From: a virus
IMG/VR virus record: IMGVR_UViG_3300015374_000025
Location: 1-39,383 of that record
DNA length: 39,383 nucleotides
Direction: 5' to 3' (one strand)
A model generated the notes under the pieces. That model had not been told where the DNA came from. It made no database searches and worked only from the letters and a program-made list of their open reading frames with translations. Below are positions 1,407-29,228 of this stretch, piece after piece (position 1 is the stretch's first letter; every line of letters begins with the position of its first letter). Made by a program: the position numbers and the translations under genes.

Positions 1407-4400
1407 TCATGCTGAATCCCGCCAGGCGAAGCTGGGCTCGCTGGCTTCGGCGATGATCTGGACGCCGTGCAGCTCGCTGGTCATGCACTCGACCAGCGCG
1501 GCCGTGGCCTCCTCGGCCTCGTCCTCGGGCACGTGGACCACGAGCTCGTCGTGCACCGGCAGCAGCGTGGCGTCGCCCCACCTGGTGCCGGACCACCGCA
1601 TCAGCGAGTCGATCAGTAGCTCGCGTGCGGTGCCTTGGATGCAGTAGTTGGGGGCGGCGTAGCCGCGATCCTTGGGCATGTAGATCGTTCGGCCTGAGTA
1701 GGCCTGGAACTCAGAGCGGCCGCTCTCCACGGCGTCGGCCACCTGTCGGGACCACTCGGTCAGACCCGGGGTCATGTGGTCCATCGCGTCGATGATCGCC
1801 CTGGCAATCGGCTCGCTTACTGGTGGATCGGACGTGATGAGTCCGTTGAGCCCGGAGCCGTAGAGACGGCCGAAGACTTTGCGCTTGGCCTGGTAGCGCT
1901 CGGGCTTGCCGGCGCCCGGGCCCCACACCAGCTGTGCGATCTCGCGGTGGATGTCCCGATCAGGGTCGGCCACGATCGCCTTGAGGTTCGCGTCCTGGCT
2001 CAAGGCCGCCGCCACCCGCAGCTCGACGCCAGAGAAGTCGGCCGAGATCAGCAGGTGCCCGGGATCCGCGGTGATGCAGGCCCGGAAGCCGCCCTCACGT
2101 GGCACCTGCTGCAGGTTGGGCCGGACGCAGGACATGCGCCCGGTGTCGGCAGCCAACGTGTAGATCGTTGGCCGCGCCCTGCCATCACCGCGTTCGATCA
2201 GCTCGGTGTACTGGTCGAGGAACAGGCCCAGCCGGTTCTCCGCCACCTGGTAGGCCAGCCGGGCGCGCACCAGGTCGCCAAGCTCGCCGTCGGCCTTTGC
2301 GTACCGGTCGATCGCGCCCTTGGCCACGCTGGCCCGTCCGGTCTTGGTGCGCGGCAGCTCGGCTCCGAGTCGCTCGAGCACAGTGGCCACCTGCTGGTCG
2401 CTGCCTGGGTTCTCGATGCCATAGGCGTGCAGCTGTTGGGCGGCCGCTGCGAGGTCGGCGGTCTGCTCGGCGTGCAGCCGGGCGGTGTGCTCGGGGTCCA
2501 GGCGCAGCCCGCGATCCGCGACCCGGGCTGTCATCTGGTGGGCAGCGCGCTCGCGTTCGAGCAGGGCCGGCTCGGGCTGGGGAAGGAGCTCGGCGATCGC
2601 GGCATCGTCGAGCACGTCGCTCGCCGCGTAGCGGATCATCGTCTCGCTGGTGGCCGGGACGTTGGCCCAGCCGGATCGTTCGATCGGTGTGGTCGGCTTC
2701 ACCTCGGTCAGCCACTTGCCGGCCTTGAACAGCGCCGCCCTGGCCTCGTCGGCCGCCGGTGCGGTCGCCTCCTCGCCGAGCATCGCCTGGGCGATCTTCT
2801 TCAGACCTTGGTCCGAGCCGGTGGACTGCGGGTCCGCAAGCTTGGCCAGCACCACGGTGTCGTGCATCCGAGCCCACGCTTCCTCGAGGTCGAGCAGGTC
2901 TGCATGGGACAGCGGCACCAGATCGGCGGTCGCCGAGTGGGCGTGGAGCTTCGCCGCAGTCGCCAGGTGCTGGGCGGCCACTGCAGCATGCTCGGGGTTG
3001 CCGCGATCGAGCACCACGGCGAAGTGCTTGTTGCCGAGCTGGATCGTGCGCAGCGCGAAGTCGCGGTGTCCCACCGGGTAGCCGGTGTGCTCGACGTCAA
3101 CCGTGAGGGCGCCGGCTGTCGAGGTGATCGTGCTGAGCAGCTCGCTGGCGTCGTGAACGCTGACCGGTGTCACAGTGCCGTCGCGGGTCACGATCGCCGG
3201 CAGCTCGATGGTCGCGCCGGCGGCTTCGGCTATCGCCGCCAGCCGCTTCTCCTCACGCTTCGCGGCCGCCTTCTCCTTGGCTGCAGGAGTCTGCTCGCGC
3301 TTGGGCTTCGGCGTGGAGGGTTGAGGATCAGCGTTTTCGCTGGTCAGGTCGAGTCCGGCCAGTTCCGGGTGGAGGGTTTGAGGTTTCTGGGTATCGCCGC
3401 CTCCTGTGCGCGCCTGCGCGTGCGTATGCGCGTAGTTACCCCCTGAAAACCCTCCACACCCTCCACCAATTTGGGATTGACTGGGGTTGACCTGCGGAAA
3501 CACCGGTGGAGGGTTGGTGTTCAAACCCTCCACAAACCCTCCACTTTCGGGGCTCAACCCTCCACCGATGGCCTGTGTCGAGGTCGGCGGAGTCGAATTC
3601 ATGCCCGGAAGGAAGCCGCCGGTGTGGACCCGCAGGAGCCGAACGTTGTGCTTGTTCGTCTTGATCGGCGGGTAGCCGAGACGGACCAATGCGCGCCCCC
3701 ACCTGGTCTCGGTGGGTACGGCGTCGGCTCGGAGTCCGGACCGTCGGCAGGAGGCCACGAAGGCCTGGTAGAGCTCACGGCTGGGGGTGCCGGTCTCGCT
3801 GGGTTCGGTCTCCTCCTCGACCCACACACGGATCGGGTCCTGCTCGGCTCCGAGGTTCTCGGCCAGGTAGCGAAGGTGCTCGGGAGCCGCCGTCACGAGC
3901 CCGGTGGTCGGGTCCTCGAGCCAACCTGCGGCCTCGGCCATCATCTGTGCCAGGACGCCGGGAGCCTCGGCCCGCCACGCATCGCTCGAGGTATGGCCGA
4001 TCGCCGATCGGGTCAGCCGTACGAGCTCGGGATCTCCGTCGCAGGGGATGAGCCGTGCCCGGGCCCGGATCGCCGGATCGGTGAGCACCGGCTCGTCATT
4101 GGTGGTCAGCACCAGGGTGTGAGTCGGCCGGAACGTGATCGGGTTCTGGTTCATCTGGTTGGCCGTGAGCTCGCCGCCACCGGTCAGCTGCTTGAGCCGC
4201 TCTTGGGCGAATCGGCCCTCGCGCGGACCCTCATCTATGAATGAGAGCCGGCGGCCCTTGAGGGCGAACACGATCGACTGGTGGGCCTTGGCACCCTCGA
4301 CGCCGAGCAGCCTCGGGTCGGCGGCGTGGGCGTACGAGCCGAGCACCGACATCAGCAGGCTGATGACCTGGGTCTTGCCGCGGCCGGTGTCACCGATGAG

Positions 4401-6101
4401 GATCGGCAGCGCGCGGTCGGCGTACCCGGTCAGCGCGATCGACAGGACCCGCAGGGCCCACCGTCGGGTGCCCGGGTTGGGCCAGACGGCCTCGAGGAAG
4501 GCGTCCCACAGGGGAGTGGGCACGCGCTCGGGAGTGACGCCCGCGGTGTGCAGGTGCGGGGTGCTCGGGTCGATGCGGGCCAGCCAGTGCTCGATCGGAT
4601 CGTCCTCGTGGCAAGCGGCCAGGTCCCACGGGTATCCGCCGGCCCAGAGGATGTGCGGCTGGCTGTCCAGATCGGACAGCTGCACGGCAGCCGGGTGCAG
4701 CCCCGCGGCGACCAGGGCACCCATCTTGCCGGCGATGGCCTTGGCGCCGGCCTGGGTGTGGAAGCGGGCACGTCGCGACGACCGGCCTTTCTCCTCGCCG
4801 TCCTTGTCGCCGTCGGGATCCCCGATCGGCATGAGCTTGGCGACCTCGGCGACGCACCAGTCACGCAGGTCCTTGCTGAGCTCCCAGCGGTCCGGGAGCC
4901 GCAACAGCCAGCCGCCGGAGTCCGAGGCGTAACGGACGACGGGGTACATGCGCTCGAGCACGGCCTGGGCCAGCGGCTGGTCCAGCTGCGCGACTGGGTC
5001 GAACAGGTGAGTTCCGATGACCTCGCGGACGCTGAACATCCGCGGTGGCGCGATCGCCTCGAGGGGCTGGCCGTCGGCGTCCTCGGGAGCCGACGCGAAG
5101 ACAGCGAACTCGTCCTCCCGCAGGCATGGGTCGCGCACGACCTGGTGCACGCCGACGAGTGTCACGGCCTTTCGGGCGCTGGTCAGCAGCATCCGCTCGA
5201 ACTCCTCGCCGCGATCCTCGCCGGCGGTCAGGATGTCCCAGGCGTTGCGCATCTCCTGCAGAGCCCAAGCCGCGCCCTGGTGGCCCTGAGCGGCGGACTG
5301 CACGAGCCCGTGCACGCGCCCGGTCATGGTGTCGTGGCGGCTGCCGGCATCGGCCTTGTTGACGTCGATGACGGCCTGCATGCGGCTGTTGGTGATGTGC
5401 GCACACTCGGGCCGCCAGTCATCGCGCAGCTGGTCCAGCAGGCGCCAGCCCTCGCTGGCGCTCGAAGACGCCGGCGACGCGGCCGCTGCTCCCTCAGACA
5501 GCGCCGCGGCCCAGGCTGCGGGCAGCTCTGCCAGGTCGAACGGGCTGGGCACCTTGGCGCTCGGCAAGCCCTCGGGGGCGTACCAGGTGTAGGTGCCGCC
5601 GACCTCGTGCACGCTCGGCGCGACGACGGCATACCGATGGTGACGCTGGATGATCTCGACGTCGGGGAACTTCGTCACGTAGCGCTGTGCAGGGGCACGG
5701 AACAGCAGGATCCGGCTCGGGCCAGGGCCGTGGAGAGTGCCCCTCGAGGTCGATGTCCAGGTGGCCGGCAGCGTGCCCCATGCCTGCTCGAGCTCGGCGA
5801 GCGTGTCGTTGCCCCGTTTGGTGACGACCTTGGTCGAGCCATCCGGCTGCGTCACGGCCTTGTCGTAGTGGTCGACGTCGATGCCGATCACGCCGTCCGG
5901 CAGCCGCAGGGCGATCGAGCTGTAGGCGTGCGACCCGGCCCAGGCGACGAGCTGCAGCGGGTTGGTGTCCAGGCCCTCGGCGCCCGTGAAGCCGACCGGA
6001 GGCGGGCTCTTCTCGAGCGGGGGCACGGGCAGGATGCAGGGCCAGCCGGCCTGGGCGTAGTCCGCCACGTGGTCGGCATAGGTGCGGGGTGCGGCATTCA
6101 T
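1407..6101 (-). CDS. Prim-pol / helicase / 3'-5' exonuclease / family A DNA polymerase fusion
   Basis: One 1564-residue protein combines a replisome's main activities. Residues ~10-200 resemble an archaeo-eukaryotic-type primase-polymerase domain with the DxD pair D75/D77. Residues ~380-750 form a D5/VapE-like superfamily 3 helicase: Walker A G570-T577 (GDTGRGKT), Walker B D623-E624, and sensor TTND at 666-669. Residues ~830-960 are a Gly/Pro/Lys-rich linker. Residues ~995-1165 are a DnaQ-like exonuclease (D1002, E1004, D1060, Y1158, D1162). Residues ~1180-1564 are a Pol I-type polymerase: motif A D1355, O-helix K1406/F1410/Y1414, and motif C H1517-D1518-E1519. All catalytic motifs seem present. 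It would prime, unwind and copy phage DNA. The ORF has no internal stop, so fusion by a sequencing error is unlikely but should be checked. Confidence 0.93.
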   Translation of the reverse strand: MNAAPRTYADHVADYAQAGWPCILPVPPLEKSPPPVGFTGAEGLDTNPLQLVAWAGSHAYSSIALRLPDGVIGIDVDHYDKAVTQPDGSTKVVTKRGNDTLAELEQAWGTLPATWTSTSRGTLHGPGPSRILLFRAPAQRYVTKFPDVEIIQRHHRYAVVAPSVHEVGGTYTWYAPEGLPSAKVPSPFDLAELPAAWAAALSEGAAAASPASSSASEGWRLLDQLRDDWRPECAHITNSRMQAVIDVNKADAGSRHDTMTGRVHGLVQSAAQGHQGAAWALQEMRNAWDILTAGEDRGEEFERMLLTSARKAVTLVGVHQVVRDPCLREDEFAVFASAPEDADGQPLEAIAPPRMFSVREVIGTHLFDPVAQLDQPLAQAVLERMYPVVRYASDSGGWLLRLPDRWELSKDLRDWCVAEVAKLMPIGDPDGDKDGEEKGRSSRRARFHTQAGAKAIAGKMGALVAAGLHPAAVQLSDLDSQPHILWAGGYPWDLAACHEDDPIEHWLARIDPSTPHLHTAGVTPERVPTPLWDAFLEAVWPNPGTRRWALRVLSIALTGYADRALPILIGDTGRGKTQVISLLMSVLGSYAHAADPRLLGVEGAKAHQSIVFALKGRRLSFIDEGPREGRFAQERLKQLTGGGELTANQMNQNPITFRPTHTLVLTTNDEPVLTDPAIRARARLIPCDGDPELVRLTRSAIGHTSSDAWRAEAPGVLAQMMAEAAGWLEDPTTGLVTAAPEHLRYLAENLGAEQDPIRVWVEEETEPSETGTPSRELYQAFVASCRRSGLRADAVPTETRWGRALVRLGYPPIKTNKHNVRLLRVHTGGFLPGMNSTPPTSTQAIGGGLSPESGGFVEGLNTNPPPVFPQVNPSQSQIGGGCGGFSGGNYAHTHAQARTGGGDTQKPQTLHPELAGLDLTSENADPQPSTPKPKREQTPAAKEKAAAKREEKRLAAIAEAAGATIELPAIVTRDGTVTPVSVHDASELLSTITSTAGALTVDVEHTGYPVGHRDFALRTIQLGNKHFAVVLDRGNPEHAAVAAQHLATAAKLHAHSATADLVPLSHADLLDLEEAWARMHDTVVLAKLADPQSTGSDQGLKKIAQAMLGEEATAPAADEARAALFKAGKWLTEVKPTTPIERSGWANVPATSETMIRYAASDVLDDAAIAELLPQPEPALLERERAAHQMTARVADRGLRLDPEHTARLHAEQTADLAAAAQQLHAYGIENPGSDQQVATVLERLGAELPRTKTGRASVAKGAIDRYAKADGELGDLVRARLAYQVAENRLGLFLDQYTELIERGDGRARPTIYTLAADTGRMSCVRPNLQQVPREGGFRACITADPGHLLISADFSGVELRVAAALSQDANLKAIVADPDRDIHREIAQLVWGPGAGKPERYQAKRKVFGRLYGSGLNGLITSDPPVSEPIARAIIDAMDHMTPGLTEWSRQVADAVESGRSEFQAYSGRTIYMPKDRGYAAPNYCIQGTARELLIDSLMRWSGTRWGDATLLPVHDELVVHVPEDEAEEATAALVECMTSELHGVQIIAEASEPSFAWRDSA
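3313..3565. repeat. Cluster of eight GTGGAGGGTT repeats; candidate replication origin
   Basis: The plus strand has GTGGAGGGTT at 3313, 3369 and 3506. The inverse AACCCTCCAC is at 3448, 3524, 3535 and 3556, and a 9/10 match abuts the first at 3457-3466. The cluster lies within the DNA coding the linker between the helicase and polymerase halves (residues ~846-930). The repeats fall in different codon frames (read as GGGL, as VEGL and as GGF), so the conservation seems to be at DNA level. Clustered repeats of this kind are typical iterons to which replication proteins bind. No origin function has been shown. Confidence 0.6.
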
Positions 6102-20195: not shown

Positions 20196-20378
20196 TTACT
20201 CGGCGTTCTTCGGTGCCACGTAGACGAACCCTCCGCCGACAACGAGACCGGCGCCGAAAGCGATCCAGGCCTCCTTGCTGGTGAAGTCGCCGTCAGCCAT
20301 GGCGGTTCCGGCCGAGACCGCGATAGCGCCGACGGCGCCTGCGACGGCCTTGCTGATGGGTGCGAATGCGTTCTTCAT
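20196..20378 (-). CDS. Holin-like small membrane protein
   Basis: A 60-residue protein: MKNAFAPISK, a first hydrophobic helix (AVAGAVGAIAVSAGTAMA), a short polar turn, a second helix (AWIAFGAGLVVGGGFVYVA) and a charged end. Two membrane segments and the position right after the endolysin fit a class II-type holin. The ribosome site AAGGAG is well placed. It could also be a structural or host-modifying membrane protein. Confidence 0.6.
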   Translation of the reverse strand: MKNAFAPISKAVAGAVGAIAVSAGTAMADGDFTSKEAWIAFGAGLVVGGGFVYVAPKNAE

Positions 20379-20395: not shown

Positions 20396-22081
20396 TTACG
20401 TGAGAGTCAGCACGAACTGCAGCGGGTAGTGGTCCGAGAGGTTGACGCCGGCTTCGTTCGCCCGGCCCCACCTGCGCACCCTGACGTTCGCTGCCTTGTG
20501 CGCGAGCACCCCGTCCAGGTGCTTGCCGGTGCGGAAGGTCGAGACAGTGCGATCGCCCTTCTCCTCGAAGTTGTAGGCGTCGAGAGCGTGGAACGGGTTG
20601 TCCGTGGTCGAGCCGTCCCAATTGAGGTCACCGGTGACGACCCGGTTCGTGTCCTTGATGCCGAGCTCGTCGCAGTCCGAGCGCCACTGGGCGAAGATCG
20701 AGCGCAGCTGCTTGGCCTGCTTGGCGGCGTCCCGGTAGTCGGTGTGCACCTCGAGGAACGAGAACGGAATGCCCCCCTTCTCGGCGAAGATCGCGGCGCC
20801 CCACTTCGTGTTGTCGAGGTAGGCGTACAGCGTGTCCTTGTAGGCCTTGCGCGGCGCGGTCTTGGTGATCGAGGTCTTGTGCCAGATCGCCTTGGCGCGC
20901 TCCTCCCAGGGGAACAGGTCACCGATGACGTAGTTCATCCCGGCGCGCAGATCGTCCTGGCTCGCCTCGCACGTCACGAACGCCTCGAAGCCGATCGCCA
21001 GCGCCCACCGGGCGACGTCGTCACCACGGGTCGCGTTCTCGGCTTTGTAGCCGCTGCTGACGTTCGACCCGGCGATGTTCCAGTGCAGGCCGGTGACGGA
21101 CGTAGGCGGTGGCGGTGGCGCGCTGTCGAGCTTGGCGAACGTCTGCGCGCCGGGAAACCCGTCTGATGCGCCTCCGACCTTGACGGCATCCCCGCTCGAG
21201 CCGAAGCCCCAGGCCACCTGCAGGTTGGACAGGTCGTTGCGCTCTGTCGAGCTGAACACGTCGTCGGGGGTCCACGTGGGGAAGCCCAGCGCTTCGTTCC
21301 AGACGTTGATGCGCTCGCCGAGCTTGAGCACGTCGGGCGACTGCGCGCCCAGCTTCCACGTCGACGCCTGGCCCCACACGGGCCCAGCGGGCACGGGGGT
21401 CGGCGTCGGGTCAGTGACGGGCTCAGGCGTTGGCGTCACCGCGCCCGTGGCGAGCTGCACCAGCTTGGCGATCGGGAACGCCCCAGGGTCGCCGTGCGCG
21501 TTCTCAGGCACATGCTGGTGGCCCACGATGCCGTAGTTGGCCTGCCACTCCGAGAAGCTCATGCGGTACTTGCTCGCGCCGTACGACGAGGGGTATCCGC
21601 CCCATCCACGCGGTGCGCCGTCCTTGAGCTGGAACTTCGGCCAGCTGACGTCGAACCACCTGAGCAGCTCGGCGATGCCGGCGAGGAACCAGTCAGGCGC
21701 CGCCGGCATGTAGATGTAGTCGACACCGGCCTTGTAGGTGCGGCCGTTGACGGTCCAGGTGTCACGGTGTGCGTAGTCGCAGGTGCCGACGAGCTCGAGC
21801 TGCACGCAGCCCAGCGTGTTCGTCTCGACGCCTCCGCCCAAGTTGACCAGGGCCCGCGCTGAGCGGTTGGCGGCGAAGTGCTGGCGCACCTTGACCGTCC
21901 TGGTCGCGAAGTCCGGCCGCAGGGTGAAGTGCGGAGCAACCGCGCCGCCGGAGTAGCCCGGCCAGGTCATGCCCTCCGTCGAGTGCAGGACGATGTTGTT
22001 GGCGTCCATCAGCGAGCCGACGTACAGCCCGCCGAACCACTGGGACGCGCGGTCAGCGCCTGGGTAGATGGTCGTGCTCAT
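20396..22081 (-). CDS. Endolysin: amidase + peptidoglycan-binding-like domain + EEP nuclease/phosphatase domain
   Basis: A 561-residue protein in three parts. Residues ~1-210 are an N-acetylmuramoyl-L-alanine amidase (amidase_2/PGRP type) with likely zinc ligands H33, H188 or H190 and D198. After a Pro/Thr linker, residues ~240-320 resemble a wall- or peptidoglycan-binding domain ending in DGFPGAQTFAKL. After a PPPPP linker, residues ~328-561 carry the endonuclease/exonuclease/phosphatase fold with its full signature: N335, E372, H446, D485 and N487 (GDLN), D523, and D550-H551 (SDH). The first two parts cut the cell wall. The third would hydrolyse phosphodiesters or phospho-groups; the target is unknown. 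The ribosome site CAGGAG is strong, and holin-like genes follow. Confidence 0.88.
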   Translation of the reverse strand: MSTTIYPGADRASQWFGGLYVGSLMDANNIVLHSTEGMTWPGYSGGAVAPHFTLRPDFATRTVKVRQHFAANRSARALVNLGGGVETNTLGCVQLELVGTCDYAHRDTWTVNGRTYKAGVDYIYMPAAPDWFLAGIAELLRWFDVSWPKFQLKDGAPRGWGGYPSSYGASKYRMSFSEWQANYGIVGHQHVPENAHGDPGAFPIAKLVQLATGAVTPTPEPVTDPTPTPVPAGPVWGQASTWKLGAQSPDVLKLGERINVWNEALGFPTWTPDDVFSSTERNDLSNLQVAWGFGSSGDAVKVGGASDGFPGAQTFAKLDSAPPPPPTSVTGLHWNIAGSNVSSGYKAENATRGDDVARWALAIGFEAFVTCEASQDDLRAGMNYVIGDLFPWEERAKAIWHKTSITKTAPRKAYKDTLYAYLDNTKWGAAIFAEKGGIPFSFLEVHTDYRDAAKQAKQLRSIFAQWRSDCDELGIKDTNRVVTGDLNWDGSTTDNPFHALDAYNFEEKGDRTVSTFRTGKHLDGVLAHKAANVRVRRWGRANEAGVNLSDHYPLQFVLTLT

Positions 22082-22139: not shown

Positions 22140-22583
22140 TTAGCGGCCGAGAAGACCGGTGGCGCGGCGGTACTGGCGGTAGAACCACCAGCCGACGCCT
22201 TCGTGATCACGGATCTGGGCTGCGAGCAGCACCCAGGTGCGCATGAGCATGGACGACCAGGTCAAGCCGACCCAGACGGTGACGAGCCAGTCCTTGCCCC
22301 AGAACAGCGGGCCGATGATCCTGACCAAGCCGGCGGCGATGATCACGGACAGGACCGCGAACGCCAGCAGCAGCAGCGATGTCCCGAACCAGTGCCGGTG
22401 CGGGTGTTCAGGGATGTAGGCGACGATGAACAGGACCGTCACCGGCATGGTCGCGAGGATCGTCCACAGCTGGGTGTCATGGAACCCGAACACGAACTGT
22501 CCGAGCAGGCACAGGATGATGACGGGGATCACGCCGGCGGCGACCTTCCTCATGCTGTGCAGCCAGCCGGTGATGCCCCTCAT
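22140..22583 (-). CDS. Multi-pass membrane protein, holin candidate
   Basis: A 147-residue protein with about four hydrophobic helices: VAAGVIPVIILCLLGQFVFG, LWTILATMPVTVLFIVAYI, LLLLAFAVLSVIIAAGLVRIIG and LVTVWVGLTWSSMLMRTWVLL. The C-terminal tail is charged (WFYRQYRRATGLLGR). It lies between small tail-related genes and the endolysin, so it may be a holin. The start overlaps the coiled-coil gene's stop by 4 bp; an ATG at 22553 is possible. Confidence 0.65.
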   Translation of the reverse strand: MRGITGWLHSMRKVAAGVIPVIILCLLGQFVFGFHDTQLWTILATMPVTVLFIVAYIPEHPHRHWFGTSLLLLAFAVLSVIIAAGLVRIIGPLFWGKDWLVTVWVGLTWSSMLMRTWVLLAAQIRDHEGVGWWFYRQYRRATGLLGR

Positions 22584-22784: not shown

Positions 22785-23024
22785 TCAGGTGCCTTCCTCG
22801 AAGACCCTACGGACGGGCTCCAGCGCCTTCTGCTCGACGCCGCGCTGCGCGATCGTCTCGGCGTGCGCAGTCTGCTCGTTCTGAAAGGCCGCCTTCCAGG
22901 AGGCGATCTCCGCGTCCTTGGCCTTGACCACCGTGTAGGGCACCAGCCGGCCGAACAGGATGAGGAGCACAACCAGCCCCAGCAGGCCCTCAGGGGTGTA
23001 GTCCAGGACCGGCAGCCCGTCCAT
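22785..23024 (-). CDS. Single-pass membrane protein with coiled coil
   Basis: A 79-residue protein: a membrane segment near residues 13-32 (LLGLVVLLILFGRLVPYTVV) and then a helical coil (KAKDAEIASWKAAFQNEQTAHAETIAQRGVEQKAL). It could be a holin or spanin-like accessory. It starts at the last base of the tail fibre gene's stop codon. Confidence 0.6.
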   Translation of the reverse strand: MDGLPVLDYTPEGLLGLVVLLILFGRLVPYTVVKAKDAEIASWKAAFQNEQTAHAETIAQRGVEQKALEPVRRVFEEGT

Positions 23025-23821
23025 CAGGCCTTCCCCTCGAGCGCGTCCAGGCGCTTGGTCAGGGCAGCGATCTGGTCGGCCTGCACGTCGAGCTGCTTCT
23101 GCTGGGACTTCGCGAGCTCGAGCAACGCAACTGAGATCCTGTCGGTCTCGATCGAGTCGGGCTGGCCGTCCTCGTCGACGTTGACGAACTGCCGCATCGA
23201 CGGGATCTCGTAGAGCTCCTCAGCCACGAACCCGACGAAGCGCCGTTCGGTGTCCGCGTCGGGGTCCATGCCCTCGACGTCGGCGCGCTGCCGCCACGTG
23301 CGGCCTTGAATCTTGAGCACGTCGGCCGGGTCGATTGCGGCTGGCTTGATGTCTTGCTTGTAGCGGGCCGACGACGTCGACCTGGACACGACGCCCGTGA
23401 CAGCGTCGAGCACGGCGTTCGCAGCTGCGGCGGTGGTGAAGTGCTCGACGCTGATGCGGCCCGTCGTCGACAGCAGTTGCATCCTGGTGTTCGCGTCGTC
23501 CCACTTGACCCGGCCGAACCCGTTGAGATCGCCGACGAGCAGCGTGCCAGGGTCAATGCTGGTGAACGGGGGCGTGATGCCCGTCGGCGTACCGTCGAGC
23601 GTGTAGACGCTGAACGACCCGGGCGCGAGCGTCAGCAGCCGACCGACCTTGTCGGTGACGACGAGACCGCCACCATCCTGGATCGTGATGCCACCGGCGC
23701 CGATGATTGCCGAGAACAACTTGTGAGCGCCGCGGAGATTGTCGATCTGCCGTTGCTGGTCCTTCAGGATCTGCCGGAACCCGGCCTCACCGGTCGGCCG
23801 ATGCTGGTAGCCGTCTGCCAT
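23024..23821 (-). CDS. Tail fibre protein with S74 intramolecular chaperone domain
   Basis: A 265-residue protein. The N-terminal part is a short helix followed by beta-rich fibre sequence. Residues ~150-265 match the S74 endosialidase-type chaperone: S-S-A-R-Y-K (S150, R153, K155), then the long ADVLKIQGRTW / RFVGFVAEELYEIP region and a coiled C terminus (LDVQADQIAALTKRLDALEG). In this family the domain helps trimer assembly and cuts itself off at the Ser/Lys dyad. Cell-surface attachment is the likely role. Confidence 0.85.
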   Translation of the reverse strand: MADGYQHRPTGEAGFRQILKDQQRQIDNLRGAHKLFSAIIGAGGITIQDGGGLVVTDKVGRLLTLAPGSFSVYTLDGTPTGITPPFTSIDPGTLLVGDLNGFGRVKWDDANTRMQLLSTTGRISVEHFTTAAAANAVLDAVTGVVSRSTSSARYKQDIKPAAIDPADVLKIQGRTWRQRADVEGMDPDADTERRFVGFVAEELYEIPSMRQFVNVDEDGQPDSIETDRISVALLELAKSQQKQLDVQADQIAALTKRLDALEGKA

Positions 23822-28811: not shown

Positions 28812-29228
28812 ATGATGACTCGGGCGGCCGCCGTTGTTGCGGCCCTTGTTCTTGTTGGCGGCTGCAGTAGCGGATCGGACAGCGCGGGCGACAAGCCAGC
28901 GGCCAAGGAGCCCAAGGAGCAGACGAAGAAGTCACGCTGTGTCGAGGTGAACCAGGCGACGATTGACGCGATCGCCGAGCGGGTCGAGGGCGGCATCACC
29001 AAGGCCGCGGCCGTGAAGTCGAAGGACTTCAAGAATGTCTACATGGTGGCCGGCAAGATCGCCGGCGGCAACGGCGTGTGGGCCACGAATGACGACCCCA
29101 CCGATGCCACCTTCCAGGGGGCCGTGCAGGCAGTGGACGGTTTCGCCAAGGAGTTCTCCACGTGGCCGAAGGCCGACGCTGACATCACGAGCGACGGCGC
29201 CGAAGACGCCGTCGACTGCTTGTCCTAG
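28812..29228 (+). CDS. Lipoprotein, probable lysogenic-conversion (moron) gene
   Basis: A 138-residue protein with a signal peptide and lipobox: residues 1-17 hydrophobic, VGG-C with the lipidated Cys at 18. A Ser/Ala/Lys/Pro-rich spacer (19-42) follows, then a folded domain with two Cys (43 and 136) that could form one disulfide. It is anchored to the outer face of the membrane. It is the only plus-strand gene inside the late operon, with its own promoter, so it is likely made in the lysogen. Superinfection exclusion is a good guess by analogy; it is not shown. The stop codon shares CTAG with the convergent gene. Confidence 0.8.
   Translation: MMTRAAAVVAALVLVGGCSSGSDSAGDKPAAKEPKEQTKKSRCVEVNQATIDAIAERVEGGITKAAAVKSKDFKNVYMVAGKIAGGNGVWATNDDPTDATFQGAVQAVDGFAKEFSTWPKADADITSDGAEDAVDCLS

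Follow-up and report, generated by a model that had tools for sequence, protein, structure and literature searches.

Does the gene at positions 20396..22081 of the window (the whole 39.4 kb virus record analyzed here) encode an endolysin with a complete endonuclease/exonuclease/phosphatase (EEP) domain at its C terminus, as an earlier note on this DNA proposed, and what would such a domain do when the phage lyses its host? The record carries genes for integrase, tail, tape-measure, portal, and replication proteins, and its terminase is closest to those of actinophages (60% against Mycobacterium abscessus prophages). The source virus is a temperate actinobacterial phage.

The lysis gene and its amidase half

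The gene is a single open frame of 561 codons, running from an ATG at 22081 to a TAA at 20398-20396, with a ribosome-binding-like AGGAG just 5' of the ATG and a steady third-position GC of 0.84-0.98 in every 50-codon block, linker included. The earlier note had the coordinates right, and its strand needs correcting to minus. Immediately upstream lies a gene for a 147-aa holin-like membrane protein (22140..22583, minus strand) with several hydrophobic stretches and a Pfam Phage_holin_2 match below the cut-off (E 4.2e-5). Immediately downstream lies one for a 60-aa small membrane protein (20196..20378, minus strand), a possible second holin with a hydrophobic stretch at about residues 37-55 and without a family match. 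Because the fusion gene is flanked by this weak holin match and by the 60-aa membrane protein, we place it in a lysis cassette, which follows the tail genes in the late block. That the gene sits beside holin-like genes and that its product has no signal peptide had both been claimed before, and both hold: by hydropathy, the lysin has no transmembrane or signal-like stretch. PADLOC and NCBIfam searches with the fusion protein returned no match.

Other features of the record deserve mention in their own right. Upstream of the lysis cassette, positions 23024-23821 (minus strand) encode a tail protein with a C-terminal match to Peptidase_S74 (endosialidase chaperone). A lone plus-strand gene amid the minus-strand tail genes (28812-29228) encodes a 138-aa lipoprotein-like product (VLVGGCSSGS) without a Pfam match, for which a role in lysogenic conversion or superinfection exclusion is possible. 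At 1407-6101 (minus strand), one 1564-aa frame unites Prim-Pol, helicase-like, and family A DNA polymerase domains, which are separate genes in the best-matching Arthrobacter phages; none of the phage records searched had a single place covering 80% of this frame.

Residues 1-320 of the fusion protein are typical of amidase endolysins from actinophages and include a peptidoglycan-binding-like module; lytic activity is predicted for them from sequence. They match PHROGs endolysins and 105 phage records, nearly all from Streptomyces and Brevibacterium phages. The amidase, a peptidoglycan hydrolase domain (residues 1-213; 21443..22081, minus strand), matches PHROGs endolysin families and shares with four Streptomyces phage lysins both 48-52% identity and the motifs HxTEG and HQHxPENxHGDxG; from general knowledge of amidases, we take these conserved motifs to be the zinc and active-site residues. 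The peptidoglycan-binding-like module (residues 235-320; 21122..21379, minus strand) aligns with the C terminus of the Hiyaa lysin (31%) and with a module of a second fusion protein, encoded by virus contig L123, that weakly matches NCBIfam PG_bind_siph. These matches and alignments bear out the amidase and wall-binding-like part described in the earlier note.

The Streptomyces phage endolysins Hiyaa gp30, Lika gp26, and Nabi gp26 resemble the window lysin in an amidase about 50% identical, in their place in the lysis cassette, and in a wall-binding C-terminal module. Unlike it, however, they have no EEP domain, and the Hiyaa endolysin stops where the proline linker of the window protein starts. 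Nabi gp26 (Nb26lys), 50.5% identical to the window amidase, has been expressed and degrades cell-wall material in vitro (PMC11705968).

The C-terminal EEP domain

Residues 328-561 (20399..21100, minus strand) make up the EEP domain. N335, E372, H446, D485, N487, D523, D550, and H551, the eight key positions claimed for it, are each found exactly where they had been placed, and the EEP catalytic set (Asn, Glu, His/Tyr, Asp-x-Asn, Asp, Asp-His) is complete. In an EEP alignment of five rows, the catalytic positions line up throughout, and that of H446 is occupied by His or Tyr. Against the domain alone, Pfam Exo_endo_phos (PF03372) aligned over profile positions 2-225 of 225 at E 0.0036, although the score of 17.5 bits lies below the curated cut-off of 24.5 (the L123 domain scores 14.8 bits). 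Neither the single domain nor a two-lysin profile retrieved any EEP enzyme from the PDB by sequence; when the window and L123 profile was compared by hhalign with three virus-contig EEP proteins, the match had an E value of 1.3e-5 and a probability of 80.5.

Structure prediction, which the earlier note had suggested as a check, retrieved the EEP fold. The two lysin sequences alone gave a poor AF2 model (pLDDT 42, pTM 0.48), for which Foldseek nevertheless ranked EEP enzymes at places 1-49 among 350,542 chains. With three stand-alone virus-contig EEPs (L084, L087, and L106) added to the alignment, the model reached a pLDDT of 68.9 and a pTM of 0.75, and all 50 of the PDB matches listed were EEP enzymes (best E 2.5e-9; query TM about 0.5-0.66). 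Since known EEPs went into the second model, the first makes the cleaner though weaker test. The predicted model has the four-layer alpha/beta fold of the family. Its modeled fold and residues make the C-terminal domain a divergent member of the EEP family, though below the Pfam cut-off. A chance motif match is ruled out by the homologue, fold, and profile evidence.

The domain shares its modeled fold and its catalytic set with DNase I/DNase1L3, TDP2, LINE-1 endonuclease, nocturnin, bacterial sphingomyelinase C, and the Bt3783 mannosyl-6-phosphatase. It differs from these known enzymes in being lysin-fused, in falling below the Pfam cut-off, and in an identity of just 11-16% in the fold matches. 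Many of the Foldseek matches listed, TDP2, LINE-1 endonuclease, and DNase1L3 among them, are nucleic-acid enzymes. A sugar phosphatase (mannosyl-6-phosphatase) and sphingomyelinases also stand among the best matches listed, however, and so the fold by itself does not dictate the substrate. One alignment (A7) gave strong sphingomyelinase C matches, which we traced to its L106 row, itself sphingomyelinase-like.

Contig L123 and the rarity of the combination

The second member of this design lies on L123, a Streptomyces-phage-like IMG/VR contig of 43% GC that encodes a 645-aa lysin-EEP protein, likewise fused in frame. Its product comprises an Amidase_2 domain (E 4.5e-10), two LysM, a PG_bind_siph-like module (E 4.4e-6, below the model cut-off), and the EEP domain. 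Identity between the two proteins is 57% in the EEP domain, 36% in the binding module, and 22% in the amidase, and both retain the eight catalytic EEP positions. The EEP domains have 133 residues in common, 48 of them encoded by the same codon and 85 by different codons (65.7% versus 43.5% GC), which shows purifying selection on the protein. The binding module and EEP domain stand behind two unlike amidases, an arrangement suggesting that they move together as one unit. L123 was found with degenerate patterns from an alignment (A1) with three artificial rows, which are not evidence; three further virus-contig scans, with patterns from real pairs, recovered only L123 again.

The terminases of L123 and Streptomyces phage RosaAsantewaa share 83% identity. 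In RosaAsantewaa and RavenPuff, a hydrolase with CW_7 wall-binding repeats is encoded in the slot from the HNH gene to the terminase block, and on these grounds we place the L123 gene at a lysin locus. Despite a terminase so close to those of Streptomyces phages, the L123/L125 contig has a GC content of 41-54%, and the L123 host may be a low-GC actinobacterium.

This second fusion bears directly on whether the window gene is genuine. The earlier note had named a frame error at the PPPPP linker (residues 320-328) as one way in which the fusion could fail; the check found none, and such an error is ruled out by the steady codon pattern together with the in-frame fusion in L123, an unrelated phage contig.

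The combination is also as unusual as the earlier note had supposed, and the search for further fusions, in a set of virus records from which near neighbors of the window record may be absent, yielded L123 as the one other virus record. In tblastn searches, the window EEP domain had no EEP relative among 50,697 phage and 72,556 plasmid records, nor did the L123 domain among the 50,697 phage records; matches at E 3-9, Mycobacterium phage Steamy among them and judged by annotation only, were not counted as homologues. No EEP domain is present in the 105 phage records that match the lysin part. Among 80 related lysins of virus contigs, 78 are 225-400 aa long, one is 425 aa, and one, with repeated PG-binding-like motifs, is 587 aa; the EEP signature motifs are missing from all of the 25 longest, the last two included. 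Virus contigs gave no match to single-sequence queries, and two pattern scans of bacterial genome contigs found no relative. A DNA motif scan of virus contigs, which like our other scans of them used short peptide patterns that lysins with other EEP types could escape, returned at least 120 stretches, mostly not EEP, and yielded the stand-alone EEPs L084, L087, and L106 plus L033. A survey of 250 Streptomyces phage endolysins recorded amidase, CHAP, peptidase, and glycosidase types only and no nuclease class (PMC11705968). We found no report of an EEP domain in an endolysin in published work, mainly that outside subscription journals. The lysin-EEP fusion is a real, rare enzyme design.

EEP proteins do occur, by fold or motifs, in phages related to actinobacterial viruses. 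Streptomyces phage Yosif gp5 (L217 1675-2373), a hypothetical protein by the terminase block, appears by fold match to be a stand-alone EEP; we equated it with the BFVD match by its length of 232 aa and its EEP-like motifs, and other Streptomyces phages have weak relatives annotated as phosphoesterases. On an unrelated virus contig, L033 1835-2710 encodes a protein that looks like an EEP, carrying GDFN, IDG, and SDH motifs; a terminase-like gene follows directly downstream. Unlike the window EEP domain, both proteins come from separate genes beside the terminase and outside lysis cassettes, and no sequence relation was detected between Yosif gp5 and the window domain; the fused domain could still derive from such stand-alone genes. 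The nearest precedent that we found is the hub protein of BtI1, a prophage-like element of Bacillus thuringiensis, which carries a nuclease domain, its role unexplained, in a kind of protein that bears peptidoglycan-cutting peptidase domains (PMC2147016). That protein, however, is a virion protein with a staphylococcal-nuclease fold, whereas the window protein carries an EEP domain in an endolysin of a lysis cassette.

What the EEP domain may do at lysis

The targets proposed in the earlier note (DNA, teichoic acid, phospholipid, or a competitor) are all still candidates. Judging by its sequence, the window protein is a conserved bifunctional endolysin with an intact EEP catalytic set, and our leading, if tentative, reading is that the EEP domain most likely cuts nucleic acid spilled at lysis. 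We rank this substrate first because many of the best-known members of the EEP family, and many of the fold matches, are nucleases, and because the L123 domain is strongly basic (pI 9.85, net +16). It is weakened by the window domain, which is not basic (pI 6.65, net -1). Once the holin opens the membrane, the amidase half would cleave the wall, and the EEP domain, presumably an intact metal-dependent phosphodiesterase, would be released with it, the binding module keeping it close to the wall. There it could cut host chromosome, unpackaged DNA, or RNA, so that the lysate becomes less viscous and virions come free. Phage DNA would be at risk from a cytoplasmic DNase, which argues against a nucleic-acid substrate; before lysis, the domain would have to stay off the phage's own genome. 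Low cytoplasmic Ca2+ would hold back a Ca2+/Mg2+-dependent, DNase I-like enzyme until lysis, and this may supply the timing and gating.

We consider it possible, if less probable, that the EEP domain is instead a second envelope-lysing activity, cutting phosphodiesters of the actinobacterial envelope (teichoic or other anionic wall polymers, or phospholipids) where the amidase acts. This substrate ranks second because both copies follow binding modules, joined in L123 by two LysM, and because phage DNA would be safe from an enzyme whose envelope substrate is absent from the cytoplasm. The sphingomyelinases and mannosyl-6-phosphatase among the fold matches listed point the same way, but the two-lysin profile did not find the sphingomyelinase sequence family, and we know of no EEP enzyme with demonstrated activity on teichoic acid. 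Unlikely, in our judgment, is an action after release on neighbors or surroundings (extracellular DNA, a competing cell, or a superinfecting phage) rather than in lysis itself. The EEP domain is an add-on absent from all checked sister lysins and is therefore not needed for lysis in general, but we recognized neither an entry or delivery module nor an immunity gene beside it. We give very little credence to a catalytically idle domain that only binds phosphate-rich wall polymer: it does occupy the C terminus, the usual place of lysin binding domains, but mere binding would not require that eight catalytic positions be kept in two distant copies. Least credible of all is an artefact that merged two genes through an error of frame or assembly. 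The nearest lysins do stop at about the linker position, but the coding pattern is unbroken across it, and L123 is independently fused in frame to another amidase through another linker.

Whether the substrate is nucleic acid, as we favor, or a wall polymer, we lean slightly toward regarding these proteins as a new class of dual-action lysins, which would join wall hydrolysis to a phosphodiesterase (nucleic-acid clearing or wall-polymer stripping) and whose module and EEP domain would be passed as a cassette between unrelated actinophage lysins. The standard account of an endolysin lists peptidoglycan hydrolases and binding modules. With a second, conserved enzyme of different chemistry, lysis in some phages would include an extra, so far unassayed step. 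If the domain is a nuclease, whether phages clear released DNA at lysis, and guard their own genomes beforehand, becomes testable; if it cuts wall polymers, a new type would be added to the enzymes that act on actinobacterial envelopes. In either case, lysin work gains a new module in the EEP domain.
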